Of a stretch of 64,000 nucleotides of DNA, positions 11,479 through 23,398 are shown one piece after another. Made by a program: the position numbers and the translations under genes. Origin of the DNA: Myxococcales bacterium 68-20 (GTDB lineage: Bacteria; Myxococcota_A; Polyangia; Polyangiales; Polyangiaceae); contig MKVQ01000040.1 in assembly GCA_001899635.1 (NCBI GenBank), forward strand, positions 313,915-377,914, given 5' to 3'. Every line of letters starts with the position of its first letter. Positions within the stretch are counted from its first letter, which is position 1. The notes beneath the pieces are model-generated. The model was not told where the DNA came from. It saw nothing but the letters and a program-made list of their open reading frames with translations, and ran no database searches.

Positions 11479-11617
11479 GTCCACTCACGCGAGCCTCACC
11501 TCACCGAGGCGGTGCCCGTGTCGCTGACGACCACGTGTTCGTGAACTCGGGGGCGATGCGCCCGTCCCCTGAACGGGTGTCTAGTGCGCCCGGCGTTTGG
11601 TGGCCGGTGCATTTTCT

Positions 11618-11656
11618 TTTGAACGGTTCGCGGCTGGCCGGTGACCCAACGTTCGA
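11618..11656 (+). promoter_or_regulatory. ECF-sigma-type promoter of the TonB receptor operon
   Basis: TTTGAAC, 14 bases, CGGTGAC, then AACGTTCGA. The same pieces at the same first spacing occur before the sigma gene at 18820. A GAAC -35 and a short GTGA-like -10 are the usual shape of ECF promoters. The call rests on this repetition within the locus. Confidence 0.6.
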
Positions 11657-11829
11657 AACCAGGACGCGCTGTCGTTCACGGCGCTCGGTGATCACCACCG
11701 CGCCCGTCGATCCGAGCGGACACTCCAGCCAGCTGGATCCCGTTTGCGTTGGCTCGTGCGAGCCGAGGCCGCGACCTCGTCGCGCGCCGGCGAAGCGTCG
11801 TGCGCCGCGCGTCCGTGAAAGAGGACCCT

Positions 11830-14400
11830 TTGAAGTCGAACCTACTCGTCCGCCTTGGACGAGCGGCGGCCGTCTGCGCGCTGCTCTCGCAAGGCTCGAT
11901 CGCACGCGCCGACACACCCGTTCTGTCGCCGCCGCGTCTGTCGCGCTTCGTCGATGCCGTCGATCCGCGACCGGAAGGGCCGGTGGAGCGCGCGAGCGTC
12001 GAGCTCGAGCTCGACATCGACGCGAGCGGCAACGTCATCGATGCTCGTGTCCTCCGCTCCGCGAGCGAGGCGCTCGACGCCGCTGCGATGACCGCGGCGA
12101 AGAGCTTCGTGTTCGAGCCGGCGACGCGCGACGGCACGCCGGTGCCGGCGCGCATCCGCTACGAGTACGTGTTCGCCGCGCGCGCCCCCGCGGCTCCTCC
12201 TCCGCCGGAGGCGCCGGTGCCCGTCAAGCCGGCCGCGGTGAGCGGGGTCGTCCGCGATCGCGACAGCGGCGCTCCGATCGCGAACGCGGACGTCGTCGTC
12301 ACCACGGATGCTGGCGGCTCTTACCGGACGAAGACCGATGCGAGCGGAGCGTTCCGGATCGACGGCGTCGAACCTGGGCCGGCGCACGTCGTCGCGAGCG
12401 CAGAGGGACACGTCCCGCAGCGACTCGACGAGACGCTCGATCCCGGCACCCTCACGGAGGCGACGCTGCGGCTCGAGACGACGCCCGATCCCGACGCCTT
12501 CGAGGCAACGGCGCGCGTCGAGGCGCCGGCGCGCGAGGTGACGAAGCGCTCGCTCGACCGCGACGAGATGACGAAGGTGGCCGGGACGCGCGGCGATCCG
12601 CTGCGCGCCGTCGAGCTCATGCCCGGAGTGGGGCGCCCGGCGATGGGAGGGATGCCGATCCTTCGCGGCGCGAACGGCTTCGACACGCAGGTCTTCCTCG
12701 AGGGCGCGCCCGTTCCGCTCCTCTACCACTTCGGCGGGCTCACCAGCTTCGTCCACTCGCGCGTACTCGACACGGTCGACATGTACCCGTCGAACTTCTC
12801 GGTGCGCTACGGCCGCAAGCTCGGCGGCGTGATCGAAGCGCGCCTTCGCGATCCGCGGACCGACGGTCTGCACGGGATCGCCGAGGCGAGCCTGCTCGAT
12901 ACGTCGCTCTTGGTCGAGACGCCGATCGGAGACAAGCTCTCGGTGCTCGCCGCCGCGCGCCGGAGCAACATCGACGCGGTCCTCAACTCGGCGCAGAACA
13001 GCGTCGACCTCGGGATCACCGCCGCGCCGGTCTACTGGGACTACCAGTCCGTCGTCGCGTTCAAGCCGACGGATCGAGACCGCATCCGGCTCCTCGCCTA
13101 CGGCTCGAGCGACAGCTTCAGGGTCGTCTTCAAGAACCCGAACGGAGGCGATCCCGCCGTGCGCGGCGCGTTCGGCGGCACGAGCGTCTTCCACCGCGTG
13201 CAGCTCGGCTATCGACACCGCTTCCGTGGCGGCTCCGAGCAGAACACCGAGCTCACCTACGGGAGGAGCGACGAGAACGGCGAGTTCGGTCAGATCGGTC
13301 GGGTCAAGTTCGCGATCGACACGCTGCAGGCGCGATCGGAGTGGGTGGGCGTCGTCTCGCCGGCGCTCCGCGTGACCGCGGGGCTCGACTTCCTCGGCAA
13401 CCACTTCGGCGGCAGCTACTCGGGCATCCCCGTTCCGCCGGAGGAGGGCGGAGTTCCGACGGCGATCTCGACCCAGCGGCAGATCGAAATCCGTGCAAAC
13501 CAGTGGGCCCTCACGCCCGGCGCCTACGTCGAGGCCGGGATCCGGCCCGTCGCGCCCTTGCTGATCTCGCCCGGTGTGCGTGCGGACTACAACGACATGA
13601 TCAAGGAGGGCGCGATCGATCCGCGTCTCTCCGCTCGCTACGACATCACCGAGTCGACGACGATCAAGGCCGGTGTCGGCCGCTTCTCCCAGTCGCCGGA
13701 CGAGCGCCACGTCGCCACGCCGATCGGCAACCCCGACCTGAAGATGTCGCACGCGCTCCACGCGAGCGCGGGGGTGGAGCAGAAGATCACCGAGGCGTTC
13801 AGCGCATCGCTCGAAGGCTTCGGCAAGTGGATCGACGGCGCGGTCACCGCCACGCCGGAAGGTCGGCCCCCCTACTTCGTCAACGCCCAGGAAGGACGGA
13901 TCTTCGGTGGCGAGGCGCTGCTCCGGATGAAGCCGCGAGGCCGCTTCTTCGGCTTCGTCTCCTACACGCTGATGCGGAGCGAGCGACGTGACGACGGGCA
14001 GCCCTGGCGTCTCTTCGATCGCGATCAAACGCACATCCTCGGCGGCACCGGTGTCTATCGTCTCGGACGAGGATGGGAGATCGGCGCGAGCGTCCGCTAC
14101 ACGAGCGGCACGCCGTACACGCCGGTGACGTCGAGCACCTACGACGCGACCGCGGACGTGTACTCGCCGCGCGCCGGCCGATCGATGAGCGCGCGGAATC
14201 CGCCGTTCTCGCGCCTCGACCTCCGCATCCAGAAGACGTGGACGTTCGCGCAATGGAGTCTCGCCGCGTACCTCGACGTCCAGAACGCGCTCAACGCGCC
14301 GAACCGCGAGGGCTTCTCCTACAGCTACGACTACCGCGAACGACAAGGCGCTCGCGGGCTTCCCATCCTTCCCATCCTCGGACTGCGAGGTGAGCTGTGA
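11830..14400 (+). CDS. TonB-dependent outer-membrane receptor with N-terminal TonB-like domain
   Basis: 856 aa from a TTG at 11830 with AAAGAGGA just upstream. A signal peptide ends near ARA at residue 27. Residues about 35-115 resemble the TonB C-terminal fold: VELELDIDASGNV, then ALDAAAMTAAKSFVFEPA. A Pro-rich link and a carboxypeptidase-regulatory-like beta domain (about 140-220, VSGVVRDRDSGAPI) follow. The plug (about 240-380) includes ELMPGVGRP and ILRGANGFDTQVFLEGAPV, and a beta-barrel ends in ILGLRGEL. It should import a ligand across the outer membrane using the ExbB/ExbD/TonB set encoded downstream. The stop overlaps the next start by four bases (GTGA). The ligand is unknown, and a TonB-like domain on a receptor is unusual outside myxobacteria. 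Confidence 0.88.
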   Translation: MKSNLLVRLGRAAAVCALLSQGSIARADTPVLSPPRLSRFVDAVDPRPEGPVERASVELELDIDASGNVIDARVLRSASEALDAAAMTAAKSFVFEPATRDGTPVPARIRYEYVFAARAPAAPPPPEAPVPVKPAAVSGVVRDRDSGAPIANADVVVTTDAGGSYRTKTDASGAFRIDGVEPGPAHVVASAEGHVPQRLDETLDPGTLTEATLRLETTPDPDAFEATARVEAPAREVTKRSLDRDEMTKVAGTRGDPLRAVELMPGVGRPAMGGMPILRGANGFDTQVFLEGAPVPLLYHFGGLTSFVHSRVLDTVDMYPSNFSVRYGRKLGGVIEARLRDPRTDGLHGIAEASLLDTSLLVETPIGDKLSVLAAARRSNIDAVLNSAQNSVDLGITAAPVYWDYQSVVAFKPTDRDRIRLLAYGSSDSFRVVFKNPNGGDPAVRGAFGGTSVFHRVQLGYRHRFRGGSEQNTELTYGRSDENGEFGQIGRVKFAIDTLQARSEWVGVVSPALRVTAGLDFLGNHFGGSYSGIPVPPEEGGVPTAISTQRQIEIRANQWALTPGAYVEAGIRPVAPLLISPGVRADYNDMIKEGAIDPRLSARYDITESTTIKAGVGRFSQSPDERHVATPIGNPDLKMSHALHASAGVEQKITEAFSASLEGFGKWIDGAVTATPEGRPPYFVNAQEGRIFGGEALLRMKPRGRFFGFVSYTLMRSERRDDGQPWRLFDRDQTHILGGTGVYRLGRGWEIGASVRYTSGTPYTPVTSSTYDATADVYSPRAGRSMSARNPPFSRLDLRIQKTWTFAQWSLAAYLDVQNALNAPNREGFSYSYDYRERQGARGLPILPILGLRGEL

Positions 14401-15389
14401 ACCGTCTGAACTCCTCCTCGCCGCGCAGCCCGATCGAGCGCGGCAGCAACGACCTTCGCGAGTATCTCGCATCGTTCCGCGTCTCGCGCGTGTCGCTCCT
14501 CGCGCTCGCCTTCGTCTTCGGCTGCGAGGAGACGGACACGAAGGGCTGGCTCGTCGATCGCACGCGGGTCCTCGGGGCCCGCGTCGAGGCGAAGGACGAG
14601 CCCGCCCGCGCGACGATCGCTCCCGGAGAGCCGATGCACGTGACCTGGCTCGTCGCGTCGCCGAACGGGACCGGACAGCTGCGATGGGCGTACGCGGTCT
14701 GCGCGCCGCCGATCGGCAACTTTCCCGAGCCCCGCTGCCAAGGCCCCGTGTTCGCGTCGGGCGCAGGCGTCTCCGAAGGGGAGCTCGTCACGATGGAGCT
14801 CGACGCTCCTCGGCCCGATGTGGTTGGCGACCTCGAAGAGCTCCAGATGCTCGCGGCCTTCTGCGAGGACGGTGACGCTTCGCTCGACGCGAGCCGATTC
14901 GAGGCGACCTGCGCGAGCGGCGCTCCGGCCCGGCTCGCCTCGGGCACGATCCGCCTCGCGTCGGCGGGGCCGAACCGGAACCCCGAGCTCGCGCCCGACG
15001 CCGTGCTCTTCGACGGAGCCGCGATGGCGCCGTCGACGCTGCGCACGGGGCCATGCGTCGCCGGACCTTCTGCGCCGGTCGTAGCTCCCGGGACGAAGCA
15101 CACGTTCGTGCTCCGCTTCCGCGGCGACGAGCGCGAGAGCGTCTCGGGTGCGACCGAGGGGCTCGAGAACGTGCTCGCGTCGCATGTGGTGACGGCGGGC
15201 AAGCTGAAGCGGCAGTACTCGATGTTCGAGCCGCACGATCCGGTGCCGAAGGAGGCATCGATCGAGTGGACCGCGCCGCCCGGCGATCAGGTCAGCGCCG
15301 ACGGGCGCCTGGTCGAAGCGTACTTCGTCCTCCGCGATGGTCGCGGAGGAGCGGCGTTCGGCCGGCGCACCGTCTGCGTGCGGCCGTGA
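14397..15389 (+). CDS. lipoprotein encoded between the receptor and exbB
   Basis: 330 aa. The GTG start overlaps the receptor stop and has GAGGTGA before it, so translation is probably coupled. A hydrophobic segment ends in FVFGC (lipobox Cys near residue 43); the long n-region suggests that an internal start is possible. The mature part contains paired Cys and beta-strand-like stretches (MHVTWLVASPNG, TFVLRFRGDERE) but no family I recognise. Its place between a TonB receptor and exbB suggests a surface or periplasmic accessory that helps capture the receptor's ligand. A GGGC-TTCG-GCCC hairpin follows the stop at 15393. Confidence 0.65.
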   Translation: MNRLNSSSPRSPIERGSNDLREYLASFRVSRVSLLALAFVFGCEETDTKGWLVDRTRVLGARVEAKDEPARATIAPGEPMHVTWLVASPNGTGQLRWAYAVCAPPIGNFPEPRCQGPVFASGAGVSEGELVTMELDAPRPDVVGDLEELQMLAAFCEDGDASLDASRFEATCASGAPARLASGTIRLASAGPNRNPELAPDAVLFDGAAMAPSTLRTGPCVAGPSAPVVAPGTKHTFVLRFRGDERESVSGATEGLENVLASHVVTAGKLKRQYSMFEPHDPVPKEASIEWTAPPGDQVSADGRLVEAYFVLRDGRGGAAFGRRTVCVRP

Positions 15390-15449
15390 ACGGGGCTTCG
15401 GCCCGCATCTTGTTGGCACGACGAGAAGAAGACGAAGGGAGACCGTGAC

Positions 15450-16112
15450 ATGTCGATCGAGAACAAGCTTCGCGCGCTGGCCGGTGCCGGTGCTGGTTGG
15501 GTGATGTGGCTGCTGGTGGGCCTCAGCGTGATCGTGATCGCGATCGCGATCGAGAGGGCGATCGTGCTCTTCCTCTCGAAGGAGGACGTCGGCGAGCTGC
15601 GCCGTAACCTGTCGAGCGCCCTCGGGCGGGGCGATCTCCTCGCTGCGCGTGGGGTCGTCGTGGCCTCGCGGTCGATCGAGGCGCAGGTCCTGGCCGCCGG
15701 CCTCGGCGCGCTTCCTCGTGGTGCGGCCGCGGTCGAAGAGCGGCTCGCCAGCGAGGCGCAGCTCACCAAGCTCGCGATGGAGCGCCGGCTCGCGCTCCTC
15801 GGCACGATCGGATCGAACGCGCCGTTCATCGGCCTGCTCGGGACCGTGATCGGGATCATCCGTGCGTTCCACGCGCTCGACGCGAGCGGAGGTCAGGTCT
15901 CGACCGCGCTGATGTCCGAAATCGGCGAAGCCCTCACCGCGACAGCGGTCGGCCTCCTCGTCGCGCTCCCCGCCGTCGCGCTCTTCAATTTCTTCCAGCG
16001 CCAGATCGCCGGTCGTGTGTCGCGCGCCGAGGCGCTCGGTCGCGAGATGCTCTCGTTCGTGAAGGACGAGCGACGCACGCTCACCGCGGCAGCTGCCGCG
16101 GAGGTGGCCTGA
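15450..16112 (+). CDS. exbB: ExbB/TolQ-type proton-channel protein
   Basis: 220 aa, ATG preceded by AAGGGAGA. Three membrane segments lie at about 15-40, 120-145 and 150-180. The family core is present: MERRLALLGTIGSNAPFIGLLGTVIGIIRAF (split here by eye into the loop and TM2), followed by EIGEALTATAVGLLVALPAV with the conserved Thr-rich TM3. ExbB forms the inner-membrane pentamer that with ExbD converts the proton gradient into movement of TonB. MotA/TolQ relatives share the fold; the neighbouring receptor and tonB make ExbB the right name. Its TGA overlaps the exbD ATG. Confidence 0.9.
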   Translation: MSIENKLRALAGAGAGWVMWLLVGLSVIVIAIAIERAIVLFLSKEDVGELRRNLSSALGRGDLLAARGVVVASRSIEAQVLAAGLGALPRGAAAVEERLASEAQLTKLAMERRLALLGTIGSNAPFIGLLGTVIGIIRAFHALDASGGQVSTALMSEIGEALTATAVGLLVALPAVALFNFFQRQIAGRVSRAEALGREMLSFVKDERRTLTAAAAAEVA

Positions 16113-16531
16113 TGGCGAGCTCGTCGAAGAAGGGCGATGACGGGCTGATGACGGAGATCAACGTCACGCCGCTCGTCGACGTCGTCCTCGTTCTCCTCGT
16201 CCTCATGATGGTCACCGCGACGGCGATGGCGCAGAAGACGATCCAGGTCGAGCTGCCCAAGGCGCGGAGCGGCGACGCGGATTCGTCGAAGAAGCCGCTG
16301 ATGGTCGCGGTCGACGAGTCCGGAGCGCTCTTCGTGGACACCGATCGTCTCGACGAGTCCGGCGTTCGTGCGCGTGCTCGGGAGGCTGTGGCTCGGGATG
16401 CGCAGGTCTCCGCGGTGCTCGCAGCGGACGGTCGCGCCCGCCACGAGACCGTGGTTCATGCGCTCGAGCTCCTGCGCGGCGAGCACATCGCCAAGATCGC
16501 GATCGTCGTGCGTGCCGAGGGAACGCCATGA
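16112..16531 (+). CDS. exbD: ExbD/TolR biopolymer transport protein
   Basis: 139 aa. A short cytoplasmic N-terminus ending in MTEINVTPLVD is followed by one membrane segment (about 22-42, VVLVLLVLMMVTATAMA). The Asp in TPLVDVVLVLL is the conserved proton-carrying residue of the family. The periplasmic domain starts at about 43 and keeps the VDESGALFVD and V.HALELLR pattern. It partners ExbB in the motor. Both ends overlap neighbouring genes by an ATGA, which implies fixed stoichiometry through coupled translation. Confidence 0.9.
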   Translation: MASSSKKGDDGLMTEINVTPLVDVVLVLLVLMMVTATAMAQKTIQVELPKARSGDADSSKKPLMVAVDESGALFVDTDRLDESGVRARAREAVARDAQVSAVLAADGRARHETVVHALELLRGEHIAKIAIVVRAEGTP

Positions 16532-17316
16532 TGGCGCTCGCAGCAGTGCGGTGGTCCGAGGAAGAGCGGGGCGGTCTGCTCCGCTGGATCCTCCCGGCGA
16601 GCATCGCGCTGCACGTCGTCACCTTCGCCTGGCTGCCCTCGACGCACCCCAGTCCGACGAAGCTCCCGCCGCCGCCGCTCGTGCTCGAGGTCGCGGACGT
16701 TCCTCCGCCGGCGCCTGCCCCTCCGCCTCCGACTCCCGAGCCGACGGCCGAGCCGACGCCGGAGGCAGCGCCGGCGCGCACGGCATCACGCGCGCCCGCA
16801 GCGCCGGCGAACGTCGCGCGCGCGGCGCGTGAAGCGGCGCCCGCGAGTGCGCCGGCATCGGAGGCGCCGATGGACTTCACGAGCACCGTCTTCTCGAACG
16901 ACGGGCCGGGCCTCGCCGTGGGGGGCGGCGGACCTTCGCTGGCGGCGCCCGCGTCGGCGCCGGCAGGCGCACCTGTGCGGAGTAGCGCGCGGGCCGCTCC
17001 CGCGCCGCCGCGCCTGGTCCCGCCGTCGTCGCTCGCGCGGCGTCCGCGAGCGCCTGGGCTCGATGCCGAGCTCGAGCGTCAGTACCCCGCCGAGGCGCGA
17101 CGCTCCGGGATCTCCGGAAGCGCCGTTCTTCGTGTCCGCATCCTTCCCGATGGGCGTATCGGGGAGGTCCGCATCATGTCCGAGTCATGGAACGGCTTCG
17201 GCCCCGCATGCGAGCGCACGGTTCGCGCGGCGCGCTGGGAGCCCCCTATCGATCGCGACGGCGCCCCGGTCGCGACGGAGATCACCTACACGTGCAGGTT
17301 CGAGGTAAGGAGCTGA
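16528..17316 (+). CDS. tonB: TonB energy-transducer protein
   Basis: 262 aa. One N-terminal membrane anchor (about 19-36, LRWILPASIALHVVTFAW) is followed by a Pro/Ala/Glu-rich periplasmic spacer (about 40-170). The C-terminal TonB domain (about 185-262) has ELERQYPAEARRSG, SGSAVLRVRILPDGRIGEV and AARWEPP. TonB carries ExbB/ExbD energy to outer-membrane receptors. The start overlaps exbD and the stop overlaps the repeat-protein gene, both by ATGA. Having a private tonB beside one receptor suggests dedicated energising of that receptor. Confidence 0.9.
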   Translation: MMALAAVRWSEEERGGLLRWILPASIALHVVTFAWLPSTHPSPTKLPPPPLVLEVADVPPPAPAPPPPTPEPTAEPTPEAAPARTASRAPAAPANVARAAREAAPASAPASEAPMDFTSTVFSNDGPGLAVGGGGPSLAAPASAPAGAPVRSSARAAPAPPRLVPPSSLARRPRAPGLDAELERQYPAEARRSGISGSAVLRVRILPDGRIGEVRIMSESWNGFGPACERTVRAARWEPPIDRDGAPVATEITYTCRFEVRS

Positions 17317-18794
17317 TGATGTCCCGACGACGGAAGGCCGCCGTTGCGATTCTCTCCGTGATGGCGTTCGGCGCCGCGTGTGAGGTCGCCTATGCGCAGC
17401 CGAAGGAGCCTGTATCGGGCGACGCCGTGAGCGCGCCGGCGTACACGCTCGAAGTGGATTCCGATGCGCCCGATGTCGTGTCGTTCGAGGCGATCGCTGC
17501 GCGCGTCGGTTCGGAGCTCGGCGAAGCGGTCGTCCGGCCCGGTACGATCGCGGCATCACGCGCGGCGATCTCGATCCGGTATCGCGATCGCGAGCTCACG
17601 GTGCGTGCGATTCATTCCGGCGGGCGAGTGCTCGAGCGGTCGGTGAAGGCCGAGGGCGACGACGCGGCCGTGCAGCGCGAGGCGGTGCTCCTCGCGGGCA
17701 ACCTCGCACGCGACGAAGCACGTGAGATCCTCGATGCCCTCGCTGCGCGACCAGCGCCTCCTCCGCCTGCAACGAAGACGCCGGAGGTCATCCGGCCGGA
17801 GGTCCAACCGGCGAAGCCGGCGGTCGACGAGGGCTATCATCCCGTCAGCGTCGCGCTGTTCTCTCCGATCGGGACGAACTTCGCCCGGCCCAATGTCACG
17901 AGCAACCTGAACCTGAGCTTCGTCTACGGTCGCGTGGGAACCGTGGATGGAGTGCAGCTCGGCAGCGGCTTCGTCTACGCCTCGCGCGGCGTCTCGGGCG
18001 TGCAGCTCGGAGGGGCGGCGACCGCGGTCTCCGGTCCGATGAGCGGCGCACAGCTCGGTAGCCTCGGCAACCTCGCGACCGGCGCAGGTGACGGCGCGCA
18101 GATCGGAGGCGCCGCGAACATTGCGCTCCAGGGGTTCGAGGGAGCTCAGCTCAGCGGCGCGCTGAACCTGAGCCGTGGAAAAGTCGACGGCGTCCAGATC
18201 GCCGGCGCCGCCAACATCGCGACACGCGACGTCGAGGGCGCTCAGATCAGCGGCGCGGTCAACGTTGCCGACACGATCGACGGCGCGCAGGTCGGCTTGA
18301 TCAACGTGGCACGGAAGGTCCGCGGCGCGCAGGTGGGCGTGATCAACATCGCCGAGGAGGTCGACGGCGCTGCGGTCGGCGTGATCAGCATCTCGAAGGG
18401 CGGGATCCATCCCGTCGTCTGGACGTCCAACCTCCAGTACATGAACGCCGGCGTGAAGTTCTCGACGAAGTACGTCTACACGATCGCCGCGGTTCACTAC
18501 GGCACGCTCGAGGGCGAGTTCGGCAACATCGGCACGACCGCCGTCATCGGTGGGCGGGTCCCGCTCCCGCTCGGCTTCGACGTCGAGGTCCAGAGCGCGT
18601 TCACCTATCTCGTGCCTCGACCCAGCCAGAGCACCAAGGAGGGGAACAACTGGGTCGCGCCTCAGCTCATCGGCGGCTACTCCTTCGCGCCGCACCTCCG
18701 GGTCTTTGCGGGGGGCGGCGCCAGGCTGCCGATCTCGGTCGACCTCGGCCGTGACGTCGTACGGCCCGAAGTGCTCGCAGGTGTTCAGTTCTGA
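17316..18794 (+). CDS. surface repeat protein of the LA_2272-like type
   Basis: 492 aa, ATG at 17316 with AAGGAGC before it; signal peptide ends near AYA at residue 27. Residues 40-145 form an alpha/beta periplasmic-looking domain, followed by a Pro-rich hinge. Residues about 210-358 hold ten copies of a short repeat opening with G-[VA]-Q (last copy GAA) and usually containing GxxN. The copies are spaced 16 residues, tightening to 14-15 in the last three. The C-terminal 130 residues look like outer-membrane beta-strands ending in LAGVQF. This matches the repeat style of LA_2272-family surface proteins, whose function is unknown. It ends the TonB operon, so an outer-membrane role with the receptor is inferred. 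Confidence 0.7.
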   Translation: MMSRRRKAAVAILSVMAFGAACEVAYAQPKEPVSGDAVSAPAYTLEVDSDAPDVVSFEAIAARVGSELGEAVVRPGTIAASRAAISIRYRDRELTVRAIHSGGRVLERSVKAEGDDAAVQREAVLLAGNLARDEAREILDALAARPAPPPPATKTPEVIRPEVQPAKPAVDEGYHPVSVALFSPIGTNFARPNVTSNLNLSFVYGRVGTVDGVQLGSGFVYASRGVSGVQLGGAATAVSGPMSGAQLGSLGNLATGAGDGAQIGGAANIALQGFEGAQLSGALNLSRGKVDGVQIAGAANIATRDVEGAQISGAVNVADTIDGAQVGLINVARKVRGAQVGVINIAEEVDGAAVGVISISKGGIHPVVWTSNLQYMNAGVKFSTKYVYTIAAVHYGTLEGEFGNIGTTAVIGGRVPLPLGFDVEVQSAFTYLVPRPSQSTKEGNNWVAPQLIGGYSFAPHLRVFAGGGARLPISVDLGRDVVRPEVLAGVQF

Positions 18795-18819
18795 CCGCAG
18801 CTGGTATTTCGCATCTTGC

Positions 18820-18857
18820 TTTGAACGAACTGCCGGGCACCGGTGACGAACGCTCGA
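18820..18857 (+). promoter_or_regulatory. ECF-sigma-type promoter of the sigma gene (autoregulatory candidate)
   Basis: TTTGAAC, 14 bases, CGGTGAC, then AACGCTCGA, matching the motif before the receptor at 11618 in sequence and in the first spacing. It starts 26 bases after the repeat-protein stop and overlaps the longest possible sigma reading frame, so it argues for a sigma start at 18863 or 18878. Confidence 0.6.
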
Positions 18858-18862
18858 GCCCC

Positions 18863-19471
18863 ATGGACACCGCTCCGATGGCGCATCTCGTCGCTCACCC
18901 TCCCGATGCCGACCGGGGGGATGACACCCCACATGCGCTCGTCGTACGGCTCCAGCGCGCCGACGTGAGCGCGATGACGCTCGTGTATCGCCAGCATCAT
19001 GTCGCGGTGCGGGCGTTCGCCCAGCGCCTCGTCGGTGACATCGAGGCCGCCGAGGATCTCGTTCAGGACGTCTTCATCGCGTTGCCCACGGCGATCGCTC
19101 GCTTCCGGGGTGACTGCGCTCTCAGGACCTTTCTCGTCTCGATCGCGGTCAATCAGGCGAAAAACCATGTGCGGGCGGCGGCCCGGCGGCGTGCGGCCCT
19201 CGCCCGACTCGGGCGTGAGCCCGAGCCCGCATCACCCGATCCTCAGCGCGACCTCGAGCGCCGCCAGCTCGCCGATCGCCTCATGCTCGCGCTCGACGAG
19301 CTTCCCCTCGAGCAGCGTGTGGCCGTGGTCCTCGGAGAAATCGAGGAGCGAACGAGCGCCGAGATCGCCACGATCGTGGGCGCGCCAGAGGGCACCGTGC
19401 GAACGCGTATCTTTCATGCGAAGCGAAAGCTTCGCGACATCATGCAGGCGGAGAAGGGAGGCGAGCGATGA
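18863..19471 (+). CDS. ECF RNA polymerase sigma factor
   Basis: 202 aa from the ATG at 18863; an ATG at 18878 is also possible. The upstream TTG at 18821 is rejected because it falls in the promoter motif. Region 2 (about 30-100) has EAAEDLVQDVFIALPTAIARF and the -10-reading stretch LRTFLVSIAVNQAKNH. A linker leads to region 4 (about 140-195), with LDELPLEQRVAVVLGEIEE and SAEIATIVGAPEGTVRTRIFHAKRKLR. It should direct RNA polymerase to the two motifs at 11618 and 18820, controlling the TonB locus and itself. The next gene, translationally coupled, encodes the likely anti-sigma partner. Confidence 0.9.
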   Translation: MDTAPMAHLVAHPPDADRGDDTPHALVVRLQRADVSAMTLVYRQHHVAVRAFAQRLVGDIEAAEDLVQDVFIALPTAIARFRGDCALRTFLVSIAVNQAKNHVRAAARRRAALARLGREPEPASPDPQRDLERRQLADRLMLALDELPLEQRVAVVLGEIEERTSAEIATIVGAPEGTVRTRIFHAKRKLRDIMQAEKGGER

Positions 19472-20322
19472 ACGACGATCACCTCCACGACGACCTGGAT
19501 CTGGCGGACGCGTTCCGCTCGGTGCGTGAGACGTACGACGGCACGAACGCGGAGTCGAACCTCACGCTTCAGCGCGCGCTCTTCCGGACCCGGACACGCG
19601 AGCGGAAGCGACGCGTCGCCCGCTGGGTCGTGCTCCCGGCGGCCGCCGTGCTCATGGCGTCGACCGCATGGGCAGGGGTGACCGGGCGGCTCGCGCCGGC
19701 CGTGCAATCGGTGCTCGAGACCTTCCACTCCGAGCGCACCGCACCGCCTCCGCCTGTGAGCGCACCATCGGTCGCCACGCGTCCGCCGAGCGCGGCGGAG
19801 ACGGCCACGAGCGTGACTCCGGAGGTGCCGGAGAGCGTCGAGCCTATCGTCGCCGAGGCGCCGCCCGCGGAGGCACCGAGCCCGCCGCCCGCTCCCGCTC
19901 CCGAGCCGACGCCGTCGCAGCCGGTCACCGCCGCGCGGCCGCCGGCGATCGCTCACGGGTCGTCGCCCGTCGTGCCGTCGCACACGAGCGAGTCGGCCCG
20001 TGAGCCCACGGTACCGTCGCCGTCGGCGTCAGCCCCGGATCCGCATGCCGCGCTCTTCGCCGAAGCCCACCGGCTCCATTTCGCGGAGCGCGATCCTGCG
20101 CGTGCCCTCGCAGCGTGGGACCGTTACCTCGCGGTCGACCCGAACGGGCGCTTCGCCCCGGAGGCGCGTTACAACCGGGCGCTTGCCCTCGTGCGTCTCG
20201 GCCGTCATGCCGAGGCTCGGAGCGAGCTCGCCGCGTTCGCGGCCGGCACCTACGGGAGCTATCGTCGCGACGACGCGAAGGCCTTGCTCGCAGCGCTCGG
20301 GAGCGACGCCTCAGCGCCGTGA
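19468..20322 (+). CDS. membrane-anchored anti-sigma candidate with periplasmic TPR-like tail
   Basis: 284 aa. It starts within the sigma stop (ATGA overlap) with AAGGGAGG upstream. The cytoplasmic N-terminal 48 residues are charged and helical, followed by one membrane segment (about 52-70, ARWVVLPAAAVLMASTAWA). A long Pro/Ala-rich periplasmic stretch (about 85-195) leads to a TPR-like domain (about 195-280, FAEAHRLHFAERDPARAL, ARYNRALALVRLGRHAEA). One-TM proteins coupled to ECF genes usually bind and silence the sigma factor. No zinc-binding ZAS motif is seen, so the anti-sigma role is inferred from position and topology. Confidence 0.65.
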   Translation: MNDDHLHDDLDLADAFRSVRETYDGTNAESNLTLQRALFRTRTRERKRRVARWVVLPAAAVLMASTAWAGVTGRLAPAVQSVLETFHSERTAPPPPVSAPSVATRPPSAAETATSVTPEVPESVEPIVAEAPPAEAPSPPPAPAPEPTPSQPVTAARPPAIAHGSSPVVPSHTSESAREPTVPSPSASAPDPHAALFAEAHRLHFAERDPARALAAWDRYLAVDPNGRFAPEARYNRALALVRLGRHAEARSELAAFAAGTYGSYRRDDAKALLAALGSDASAP

Positions 20323-20493: not shown

Positions 20494-21615
20494 TCAGGCG
20501 CTGCGGCGGCGACGGACGAAGCACGCGGCGAGGACGAGCGCGAGCGGCGCGACGACCGTACCGGTGTTCGCGCCCGACGGTGCAGCGCTGCAGCCGCTCG
20601 ACGGGATCTCGTCGAGGCTCCTCGAGCGCCTCGACGAGGACTTCGACGACCTCGGTCCAACCGACTCGCCTTCGGCGGGCTCGTCGTCGTGGAGCGATCC
20701 CTCGACGCCCTCGTCCGGGTAGTCGCTCGACTCGGGCGTCGCGGGCTGGGTCGTGTCGTCGGGCGGGGTCTGACCGCCGTTCGGCGTGGGATCCGCGGGC
20801 GGAGCCGGCTCGGGCTCGGGCTCCGGCTCGGGCTCGGGCTCCGGCTCGGGCTCCGGCTCGGGCGCCGGCGCGCCGGCGTCCGCATCCATCTCCGCGTCCT
20901 CCTCACCGTCCTCCGGATCGATGTCGACCGGCTGGCCGTTCTGCGGATCCTGGAACCAGGCCGTCTGCATCGCGGCACCGCGATTCGTGAGCTCGACGTG
21001 AAGATGATCGTCGTGCGGGTGCGGGCCCGTGTACGCCTTGTCGTTCGAACCGTTCGCCTGCCAGACGGTGCGGTCCCAGATGACCAGCTGGACGCCGATG
21101 CGCTCGGCGTTCATGACGAGCCAGTTGGCGACCGCATCTCCCTTCGTGTTGTTCGCCTGCCCGCTGATCTTCGGGATGAAGACGTCGAGCGCCCGTCCCG
21201 TCCCGTGCACGCTCATCTTCGAGCGGTTGGCGGTGTTCTGGCGGCAGACGTAGCCGCCGACGGACGTGACGGACACGAACTCGTCTCGAAGGAAGTCGCC
21301 GAGGCGATCCGCGCCGCTCTTCAACTTCCCGGCGCACGCACGCGAGCTCCAGTTCGGCGCGCCGTCGTAGTTGAGACGGACCTGCGCGCCGGCAGCGGCC
21401 ACCGCCGCGGGCAGCCTCCAGCGGCCCGAGACCGCCACGGCCTCGCTGCTCGACGCCTCGTCTTCGCCGGGCTGCGCGGAGCACGCGACGGAGCTCGCGA
21501 CCAGGACGGTGACGCCGATGGAGAGGAGCGAGGGGGCGAGACGGGGGCGACGCACGATTCCAGTGAGTGCATGCGGTGTGCCGCGTCGGCCGATCGGTAG
21601 ATCACCCATTTTCAT
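20494..21615 (-). CDS. M15-like peptidase domain protein with MYXO-CTERM-like sorting tail
   Basis: 373 aa from the ATG at 21615; starts at 21654, 21609 or a GTG at 21555 are also open. A hydrophobic segment (LLSIGVTVLVASSVAC) leads to the catalytic region, which has SVHGTGRALDVF and later HPHDDHLHVEL. This is the His/Asp and His pair expected of the D-Ala-D-Ala carboxypeptidase/VanY-like M15 fold, so a peptidoglycan peptidase is likely. An acidic (Glu-Pro)n spacer (about 245-265) and a Pro/Thr/Glu-rich stretch follow. The tail is SSGCSAAP, a membrane segment and RRRR, the three-part layout of myxobacterial surface sorting. It is divergent from fhs. Confidence 0.75.
   Translation of the reverse strand: MKMGDLPIGRRGTPHALTGIVRRPRLAPSLLSIGVTVLVASSVACSAQPGEDEASSSEAVAVSGRWRLPAAVAAAGAQVRLNYDGAPNWSSRACAGKLKSGADRLGDFLRDEFVSVTSVGGYVCRQNTANRSKMSVHGTGRALDVFIPKISGQANNTKGDAVANWLVMNAERIGVQLVIWDRTVWQANGSNDKAYTGPHPHDDHLHVELTNRGAAMQTAWFQDPQNGQPVDIDPEDGEEDAEMDADAGAPAPEPEPEPEPEPEPEPEPEPAPPADPTPNGGQTPPDDTTQPATPESSDYPDEGVEGSLHDDEPAEGESVGPRSSKSSSRRSRSLDEIPSSGCSAAPSGANTGTVVAPLALVLAACFVRRRRSA
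20806..20860. repeat. GGCTCG/GGCTCC hexamer tandem repeat
   Basis: About nine near-identical 6-bp units (GGCTCG or GGCTCC) encode the Glu-Pro spacer of the peptidase on the minus strand. This is a simple coding repeat likely to vary in length by slippage. Confidence 0.75.
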
Positions 21616-21706
21616 CGGTAATTTCGGGAGGACAGCGCGGATTTCTTTATCCATCTGGATCGATCCGTGACCAGGTGATTGAGTCGTTGACGCCCCTGAA
21701 ATCACC

Positions 21707-23398
21707 ATGGACCATCCCCCCGAAATGGAGCTCCACCCCCGCCCGATCGCCAATGTTGCCGAGGATCTAGGCCTTGGTCCCGACGACTACATCCCGTACG
21801 GCCGCGGAAAGGCGAAGCTCGATCTCGGGCTTCTCGCTCGCCCGCCTCGCGGCAAGGGGCGCCTCGTCCTCGTCACCGCGATCAACCCGACCCCGGCCGG
21901 GGAGGGGAAGACGACGACCTCCATCGCGCTCGCGATGGGCATGCGCCGCCTCGGGATGAACGCCGTCCTCGCGCTCCGCGAGCCGTCCCTGGGGCCGGTC
22001 TTCGGAGTGAAGGGCGGGGGCACCGGCGGTGGGAAGGCGTCGCTCACGCCCGCCGACGACATCAACCTCCACTTCACTGGCGACATCCACGCGATCACGA
22101 CGGCGCACAACCTTCTGTCCGCGCTCGTCGACAACTCGGCGTACTTCCGCGAGTCGATCGCGGACAAGGGCGAGATCGATCCGCGGCAGATCAGCTGGGG
22201 CCGCGCGCTCGACATGAACGACCGCTTCCTCCGCCGATGCATCGTCGGCCTCGGTGGAAAGGCGCACGGTACTCCGCGCGAGGAGCGCTTCGACATCACC
22301 GCCGCGAGCGAGGTCATGGCGATCCTCGCGCTCGCGTCGAGCCACCAAGACCTGGAGGAGCGCCTCTCGCGCATCGTCGTCGCGCACACGTACGACGGCA
22401 AGGCGGTCACCGCGGGTGACATCGGCGCTGCGAGCGCGATGACGGCGGTGTTGCGCGATGCGCTCCAGCCGAACCTGGTCCAGACGGAAGAGGGCGGCCC
22501 GGCGATCGTCCATTGCGGCCCGTTCGGCAACATCGCGCACGGCTGCAACAGCGTGGTCGCGACGCGGCTCGCGATGGCGCTCGGCGACTACGCCATCACG
22601 GAGGCAGGCTTCGGCTTCGACTTGGGGGGCGAGAAGTTCCTCGACATCAAGTGCAGGCAGGCGAACATCTGGCCGCGTGCGCTCGTCCTCGTCGCGACGC
22701 TCCGTGCGCTCAAGATGCATGGCGGCGCGCCCGTGAAGACGTGCGGCCAGCCGGACGCCGAGCGCCTGAAGAAGGGCCTCGAGCACCTCGAGAAGCACCT
22801 CGAGACGTCGAAGGCGTTCGGGCTCACGCCGATCGTGGCGATCAACGTCTTCCCGACGGACACGCCGGAAGAGGTCGCCCTCGTCGAGAAGGCGGTCGGC
22901 GCGCTCGGCGCCCGCCTGGCCCGTTCGGAGGGCTTCGCGAAGGGCGGCGAAGGCGCGCTCGAGCTCGCGAGGACGGTGAGTGAGGTCGTCGACGCGACCG
23001 ACGCGGATCCGCCGAAGCCGAAGTACGTCTACGAGCTCTCGGATCCCCCGCAGGAGAAGATCCGGAAGATCGCGCGGACGGTCTACGGCGCGAAGGACGT
23101 CGTGTTCACCTCGGCAGCCGAGAAGGGCCTCGAGCGTGGCGCGGCGCTCGGTGGCGCGGAGCTCCCGGTCTGCATGGCAAAGACGCAGCTCTCGCTCACC
23201 GACGATCCTGCCATCCCCGGCCGTCCGCGGGACTTCACGATCACGGTGCGCGAGGTCCGCCTCTCCGCCGGCGCCGGCTTCCTCATACCGCTCACGGGCG
23301 AGATGATGACGATGCCGGGGCTCCCGAGGGTCCCTGCCTCCCGCGGCATCAAGGTGCTTCCGGACGGCAAGATCAAGGGACTGATGCAGAACGACTGA
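21707..23398 (+). CDS. fhs: formate-tetrahydrofolate ligase
   Basis: 563 aa, the usual length. The P-loop TPAGEGKTT lies near residue 62. Family signatures include EPSLGPVFGVKGGGTGGG, FTGDIHAITTAHNLL and FGNIAHGCNSV. The N-terminal I-P-YGRGKAKL and the C-terminal GEMMTMPGLPRVPASR are also present. The enzyme makes 10-formyl-tetrahydrofolate from formate, THF and ATP in cytoplasmic one-carbon metabolism. The ATG at 21707 or the one at 21725 could start it; neither has a strong ribosome site. No folD or other folate gene is beside it. Confidence 0.95.
   Translation: MDHPPEMELHPRPIANVAEDLGLGPDDYIPYGRGKAKLDLGLLARPPRGKGRLVLVTAINPTPAGEGKTTTSIALAMGMRRLGMNAVLALREPSLGPVFGVKGGGTGGGKASLTPADDINLHFTGDIHAITTAHNLLSALVDNSAYFRESIADKGEIDPRQISWGRALDMNDRFLRRCIVGLGGKAHGTPREERFDITAASEVMAILALASSHQDLEERLSRIVVAHTYDGKAVTAGDIGAASAMTAVLRDALQPNLVQTEEGGPAIVHCGPFGNIAHGCNSVVATRLAMALGDYAITEAGFGFDLGGEKFLDIKCRQANIWPRALVLVATLRALKMHGGAPVKTCGQPDAERLKKGLEHLEKHLETSKAFGLTPIVAINVFPTDTPEEVALVEKAVGALGARLARSEGFAKGGEGALELARTVSEVVDATDADPPKPKYVYELSDPPQEKIRKIARTVYGAKDVVFTSAAEKGLERGAALGGAELPVCMAKTQLSLTDDPAIPGRPRDFTITVREVRLSAGAGFLIPLTGEMMTMPGLPRVPASRGIKVLPDGKIKGLMQND

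Follow-up and report, generated by a model that had tools for sequence, protein, structure and literature searches.

Substrate-induced uptake through TonB-dependent receptors has mostly been explained by the Fec model, which joins an STN-bearing receptor to FecR. The Fec system (FecI-FecR-FecA) needs both the FecR regulator and the STN receptor, and FecI-like factors are not autoregulated (PMC8103513, PMC9249621), an exception among ECF factors, for which positive autoregulation is usual (PMC8103513). Our study examined a locus of Myxococcales bacterium 68-20 that has in common with Fec an ECF sigma factor, an adjacent membrane-bound candidate regulator, a TonB-dependent receptor and TonB/ExbB/ExbD, combined in one uptake system. 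However, the locus has neither an STN receptor nor a FecR regulator, and the energising complex and a repeat protein are encoded within the operon itself. The sigma gene also carries the motif of the receptor operon, conserved in its orthologs, which suggests that it is autoregulated, whereas the sigma gene of Fec is not. We class the case, on its sequence, as a predicted autoregulated ECF pair controlling a TonB uptake operon, in a Myxococcota variant.

PUMA3 (VreA-VreI-VreR) of Pseudomonas aeruginosa likewise has ECF regulation and a TonB/TolA-like domain on its receptor component (PMC2729926). VreA bears an STN-like domain and no barrel, whereas the receptor described here has a full barrel and no STN, and not all receptors of the regulon share its TonB-like domain. 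Of the cases found in which a signalling receptor has a TonB/TolA-like domain, PUMA3 comes nearest, although its signalling domain is retained. Pairs of the RpoE-RseA type resemble the locus in the co-encoding of sigma factor and membrane partner, in an outer-membrane protein regulon and in a -35 element with AAC. That type has CGT, whereas the second box here is CGG[G/T]NAC; in addition, the partner here has a periplasmic TPR without a recognised anti-sigma domain, and a TonB uptake operon is among the targets. MxcH, the myxochelin receptor of myxobacteria, also has an N-terminal TonB-like domain (the match covers positions 1-107 of the NCBIfam model), but the full-length match of our receptor to the MxcH family (NF038079) is 66.3 bits, below the cut-off of 925, and the two are not the same receptor. 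In the titles and abstracts that literature searches listed, there was no paper on such a system for myxobacterial TonB receptors with ECF control, for a TPR anti-sigma factor in myxobacteria or for the LA_2272 family, to which the repeats of the repeat protein belong.

Within the window (the whole stretch of 64 000 nucleotides that was analysed), the locus extends from the promoter at position 11618 to position 20322, where the partner gene ends, with all genes on the plus strand. The TonB-dependent receptor (11830..14400; Pfam TonB_dep_Rec 5e-27, CarboxypepD_reg 1e-17, TonB_C 1e-9) most likely starts at the TTG at 11830, which is preceded by AGAGGA and followed by a signal peptide. It is followed by a lipoprotein gene (14397..15389) with the lipobox VFGC, which is conserved as the downstream partner of the receptor in relatives, and for which a Pfam scan gave no family and the PDB no convincing relative. 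The energising complex comprises ExbB (15450..16112; MotA_ExbB 3e-29), ExbD (16112..16531; ExbD 2e-26) and TonB (16528..17316; TonB_C 7e-15), the last with an N-terminal hydrophobic segment, a Pro-rich linker and a C-terminal TonB domain. The repeat protein (17316..18794), assigned by the NCBIfam LA_2272 repeat and its predicted structure, closes the operon. An ECF sigma factor limited to regions 2 and 4 (18863..19471; Sigma70_r2 1e-16, Sigma70_r4_2 1e-13) and its partner (19468..20322) complete the locus, the partner being a probable anti-sigma factor by its ATGA overlap, TPR, structural model and co-occurrence with the sigma clade.

Most junctions overlap, by 4 nt at receptor/lipoprotein, ExbD/TonB and sigma/partner and by 1 nt at ExbB/ExbD and TonB/repeat protein. 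An earlier reading made from the letters alone (the sequence-only reading) had described this gene order as one tight operon followed by an ECF sigma gene with a coupled membrane partner, and the junctions agree with it on both points. A terminator-like hairpin lies at 11590-11607, just 5' of the first promoter, in a scan whose hairpin count is at chance level; by the same scan, with hits likewise at chance level, no terminator was seen between the repeat-protein and sigma genes. Downstream of the locus, a convergent ORF (20494-21753, minus strand) contains a long Pro-Glu dipeptide repeat.

The exact motif TTTGAAC-N14-CGGTGAC occurs on the plus strand at 11618..11645, as the predicted ECF-type promoter of the uptake operon, and at 18820..18847, as that of the sigma gene. 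These are the only two exact matches in the 11.9-Mb genome, against 0.03 expected from base composition, and the only genome match with one mismatch falls within a coding sequence. The suggestion that the motif is limited to the starts of the receptor leader and the sigma gene therefore holds for the whole genome as well as the window, and the genome scan that had been proposed as a check found no random scatter. The relaxed CGGKNAC pattern gave two further genome matches, C3:73203 and C43:294418; the former (read as L208) sits in a long open frame and was rejected as an extra promoter site. The sequence-only reading had also counted AACGYTCGA as part of the motif. The first site continues as CC-AACGTTCGA (11648-11656) and the second as G-AACGCTCGA (18849-18857), so that the gap is 2 nt in one and 1 nt in the other. 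The element is kept only in very close relatives, and we rejected it as a conserved third box; outside them, just an A three bases past the second box is kept.

To compare relatives, orthologous sigma genes were taken from their genomes and from GTDB contigs, and the 250 nt upstream of each gene were scored, with at least 11 of 13 positions counted as a match. The ortholog consensus was NTTGAACG-N13-CGG[G/T]NAC, a generalised form of the window motif, and the conserved element can be written as TTGAACG-N13-CGGKNAC with a preference for A three bases beyond it. It was found upstream of 31 of 43 orthologous sigma genes, compared to 1 of 49 non-orthologous ECF genes scored by the same pattern, although the first of these counts is somewhat optimistic because the consensus was drawn partly from the orthologs then counted. 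The remaining 12 orthologs had no good site directly upstream, and shuffled sequences reached the threshold in about 2 % of cases. Spacing between the boxes was nearly always identical, while the spacers had diverged (36 % identical), and the density of sites upstream of the sigma gene was 70-fold that in the rest of the same loci; it is therefore the boxes that are conserved, and not the whole region. Across 65 sites the AAC of TTGAACG was nearly invariant and the second box was CGG[G/T]NAC, without the classical CGT, the exact -10 within it being a prediction. The variable bases of the second box agreed within loci in 20 of 38 pairs (14.7 expected, P=0.04), which is weakly above chance.

The two boxes recur with unchanged spacing before orthologous sigma genes, receptor genes and separate repeat-protein genes. 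Among the 12 related loci with the receptor start in the sequence, a site precedes the receptor gene in 11; in the exception (L067), the receptor directly follows the sigma and partner genes. Repeat-protein genes located away from the operon have their own site, as do some at internal junctions, and in several of these genes the start codon is found 8-15 nt past the second box. In two draft genomes (G011 and G028) the motif stands before TonB-dependent receptors on contigs without the sigma gene (L192 and L196). A further genome, G030, has the motif before two tandem paralogous outer-membrane-protein-like genes and before the gene for a small secreted protein of 107 residues (L199 and L198 sites); these lie far from the sigma locus and perhaps indicate a wider regulon in that species. 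A second copy of the motif, pointing away from the sigma gene, was seen in L064 (12193, minus strand) and L057 (11827, minus strand; both in sigma-oriented coordinates), where it faces a gene for a Cys-rich secreted or lipoprotein-like protein.

Taken with the genome counts, this phylogenetic footprint makes an autoregulated ECF promoter controlling the uptake operon a well-supported prediction. The footprint supports the earlier proposal of a positive loop, in which transcription of both the sigma gene and the uptake operon is driven by the one sigma factor.

The receptor is predicted to consist of a signal peptide, a TonB_C-like domain, a CarboxypepD_reg domain, a plug and a beta-barrel. The Pfam match of the plug is weak (0.04), and it is above the cut-off in several orthologs. 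The N-terminal TonB_C domain (11905-12190) had been missed by the sequence-only reading. No close solved relative of the receptor was found, the best being a ferredoxin receptor (49 residues, E 3.5e-7). That reading had seen no signalling domain or FecR protein at the locus, and our Pfam scans of the receptor, the partner and their orthologs agree: STN (PF07660) was found neither in the receptor nor in nine related receptors, and FecR (PF04773) neither in the partner nor in 15 orthologs at E values up to 1. The genome has one STN only, within a secretin, and therefore no FecA-type receptor was detected in this bacterium. Its seven FecR domains are all outside the locus, in proteins on several contigs of a genome with no detected STN-bearing receptor.

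The sigma clade, in which proteins share 42-83 % identity, was present in 17 of 237 genomes of a phylum-wide sample. Named records with at least 48 % identity belong to Polyangiaceae, Polyangium, Sorangium, Kofleriaceae and other Myxococcota or Deltaproteobacteria, after which identity falls to about 35 %. The one exception, a record titled as a Klebsiella pneumoniae MAG (L119, CAMDBH010000006.1), has the sigma, TPR partner and repeat-protein genes, and is probably a mislabelled or contaminated assembly. Sigma clade and partner occurred together in 28 of 58 genomes, the sigma factor alone in none and partner-like fragments only in two; the ATGA overlap between the two genes is kept in most relatives. 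In the partner, a short cytoplasmic part precedes a single membrane helix, followed by a Pro-rich linker and, in the periplasm, a TPR. In the structural model, helices span residues 4-22 and 28-72 (the latter with the membrane segment near residue 54), the cytoplasmic part is about 50 residues long, and a disordered Pro-rich linker leads to the TPR at 192-280. The partner has no sequence relative in the PDB, and in the fold search the TPR fills the match list, so that the cytoplasmic part was barely probed. YbgF/CpoB and BamD, which are periplasmic TPR proteins, were among the best Foldseek matches of the TPR, but this match is weak (E 0.02) and common to many other TPR proteins, and the TPR of the partner, unlike theirs, is anchored by a membrane helix and encoded in a gene coupled to that of the sigma factor. 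Gene coupling, topology and co-occurrence suggest that the partner is likely an anti-sigma factor.

The most constant partner in the module is the repeat protein, which is present in 35 of 44 loci compared to 15 for the receptor; several of the remaining loci are short or broken contigs. It has no Pfam family, scores above the cut-off for the LA_2272 repeat (NCBIfam NF047436; 30.3 bits, cut-off 25) and falls below that of the VC2662 family (NF047437; 55.8 against 140 bits). Its model (mean pLDDT 81; residues counted from the codon at 17313) has a signal peptide, an alpha/beta domain at about 43-144, beta-solenoid repeats at about 196-363 and a C-terminal 8-stranded barrel whose last residue is Phe. 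The barrel matches OprF, NspA and OmpA at Z 13-15 over about 110-130 residues, and the N-terminal domain was barely probed by the fold search. An even-stranded barrel with all else N-terminal to it would place the solenoid, and with it the alpha/beta domain, in the periplasm, from where the repeat protein might extend towards the TPR of the partner. Of the earlier label ‘repeat surface protein’, the repeats thus stand, and the surface location is doubtful given the modelled barrel topology.

The sequence itself shows the paired promoters, how they are conserved, which genes they precede and that Fec parts are lacking. As a whole, these findings are probably best explained by a sigma factor that drives both units, a partner that restrains it and an envelope signal that releases it. 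The sigma factor (18863-19471) would recognize TTGAACG-N13-CGG[G/T]NAC before unit 1, the sigma gene and partner, and before unit 2, comprising receptor, lipoprotein, ExbB, ExbD, TonB and repeat protein. As no terminator was seen between the repeat-protein and sigma genes, read-through could strengthen the loop. The short cytoplasmic part of the partner would hold the sigma factor at the inner membrane, as gene coupling, topology and phyletic coupling suggest, while its periplasmic TPR, at the end of the Pro-rich linker, may sense the state of the outer membrane or of the uptake machinery. The TPR would most plausibly contact the receptor, TonB or the repeat protein, the last through its periplasmic part. 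Once freed, the sigma factor would cause more of the receptor to be made, together with its own energising complex and the repeat protein.

Other explanations bear on separate parts of this model. The two window sites have extra bases in common beyond the boxes, as might be expected of a chance pair or a recent duplication of a short DNA stretch. However, the footprint is kept in relatives whose sigma proteins are only 42-83 % identical and whose spacers have diverged, and the genome counts and the comparison across relatives refute such an origin, leaving it a negligible likelihood. The motif could instead be the site of another regulator, or of another sigma factor, common to both units, as this genome has eight further related ECF matches and the motif is tied to this sigma factor by sequence comparison only. 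This is very improbable, as the motif follows this sigma clade and is missing upstream of other ECF genes, and its fixed spacing, with a start codon soon after the second box, fits a promoter. Rather less far-fetched, and still quite unlikely, is a disguised Fec-type signalling in which the TonB-like domain of the receptor stands in for the signalling domain of FecA and signals to the partner. The receptor does have a periplasmic N-terminal extension of TonB_C and CarboxypepD_reg, and in PUMA3 of Pseudomonas a TonB/TolA-like domain is linked to a signalling domain in a receptor-like protein (PMC2729926). Among the receptors that share this promoter, the TonB-like domain is present in L051, L059, L066, L113, L115, L118, L192 and L196, but a Pfam scan found it absent from L053, L062, L068, L114 and the N-terminus of L054; the L053 receptor lacks it despite a 66 % identical barrel. 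Its absence from several members of the regulon means that the TonB-like domain is not the conserved signalling element, and it was rejected in that role. Moreover, N-termini of this kind occur at about ten other places in this genome, at which the genome scan found no promoter motif, and the locus itself has no STN or FecR. Some of these other TonB_C N-termini are close to ExbD genes.

The remaining alternative accepts that the sigma factor is autoregulated and takes the partner to be a co-regulated envelope protein and not an anti-sigma factor, with the signal entering elsewhere, for example through transcription of the sigma gene. No recognised anti-sigma domain (FecR, zinc-finger or RseA-type) was matched in 15 partners, and a cytoplasmic part of about 50 residues only is also consistent with this alternative. 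Against it stand the translational coupling by ATGA overlap in most relatives, the near-perfect phyletic coupling and adjacency with the sigma factor, and a membrane topology typical of anti-sigma factors. We regard a partner without anti-sigma function as unlikely, and retain restraint of the sigma factor by the partner as the preferred reading.

In summary, the TonB uptake operon described here is very probably under ECF control without STN or FecR, as judged from its promoters and domains, and the same module recurs across many related Myxococcota. Within this conserved module, the lipoprotein and the repeat protein have no Pfam family and the partner is recognized by its TPR alone. In bacteria with an abundance of ECF factors, the promoter consensus provides a direct handle on the regulon and its signal. 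A possible new signalling path can also be put to the test, as sigma factor, TPR partner and repeat protein are constantly paired.
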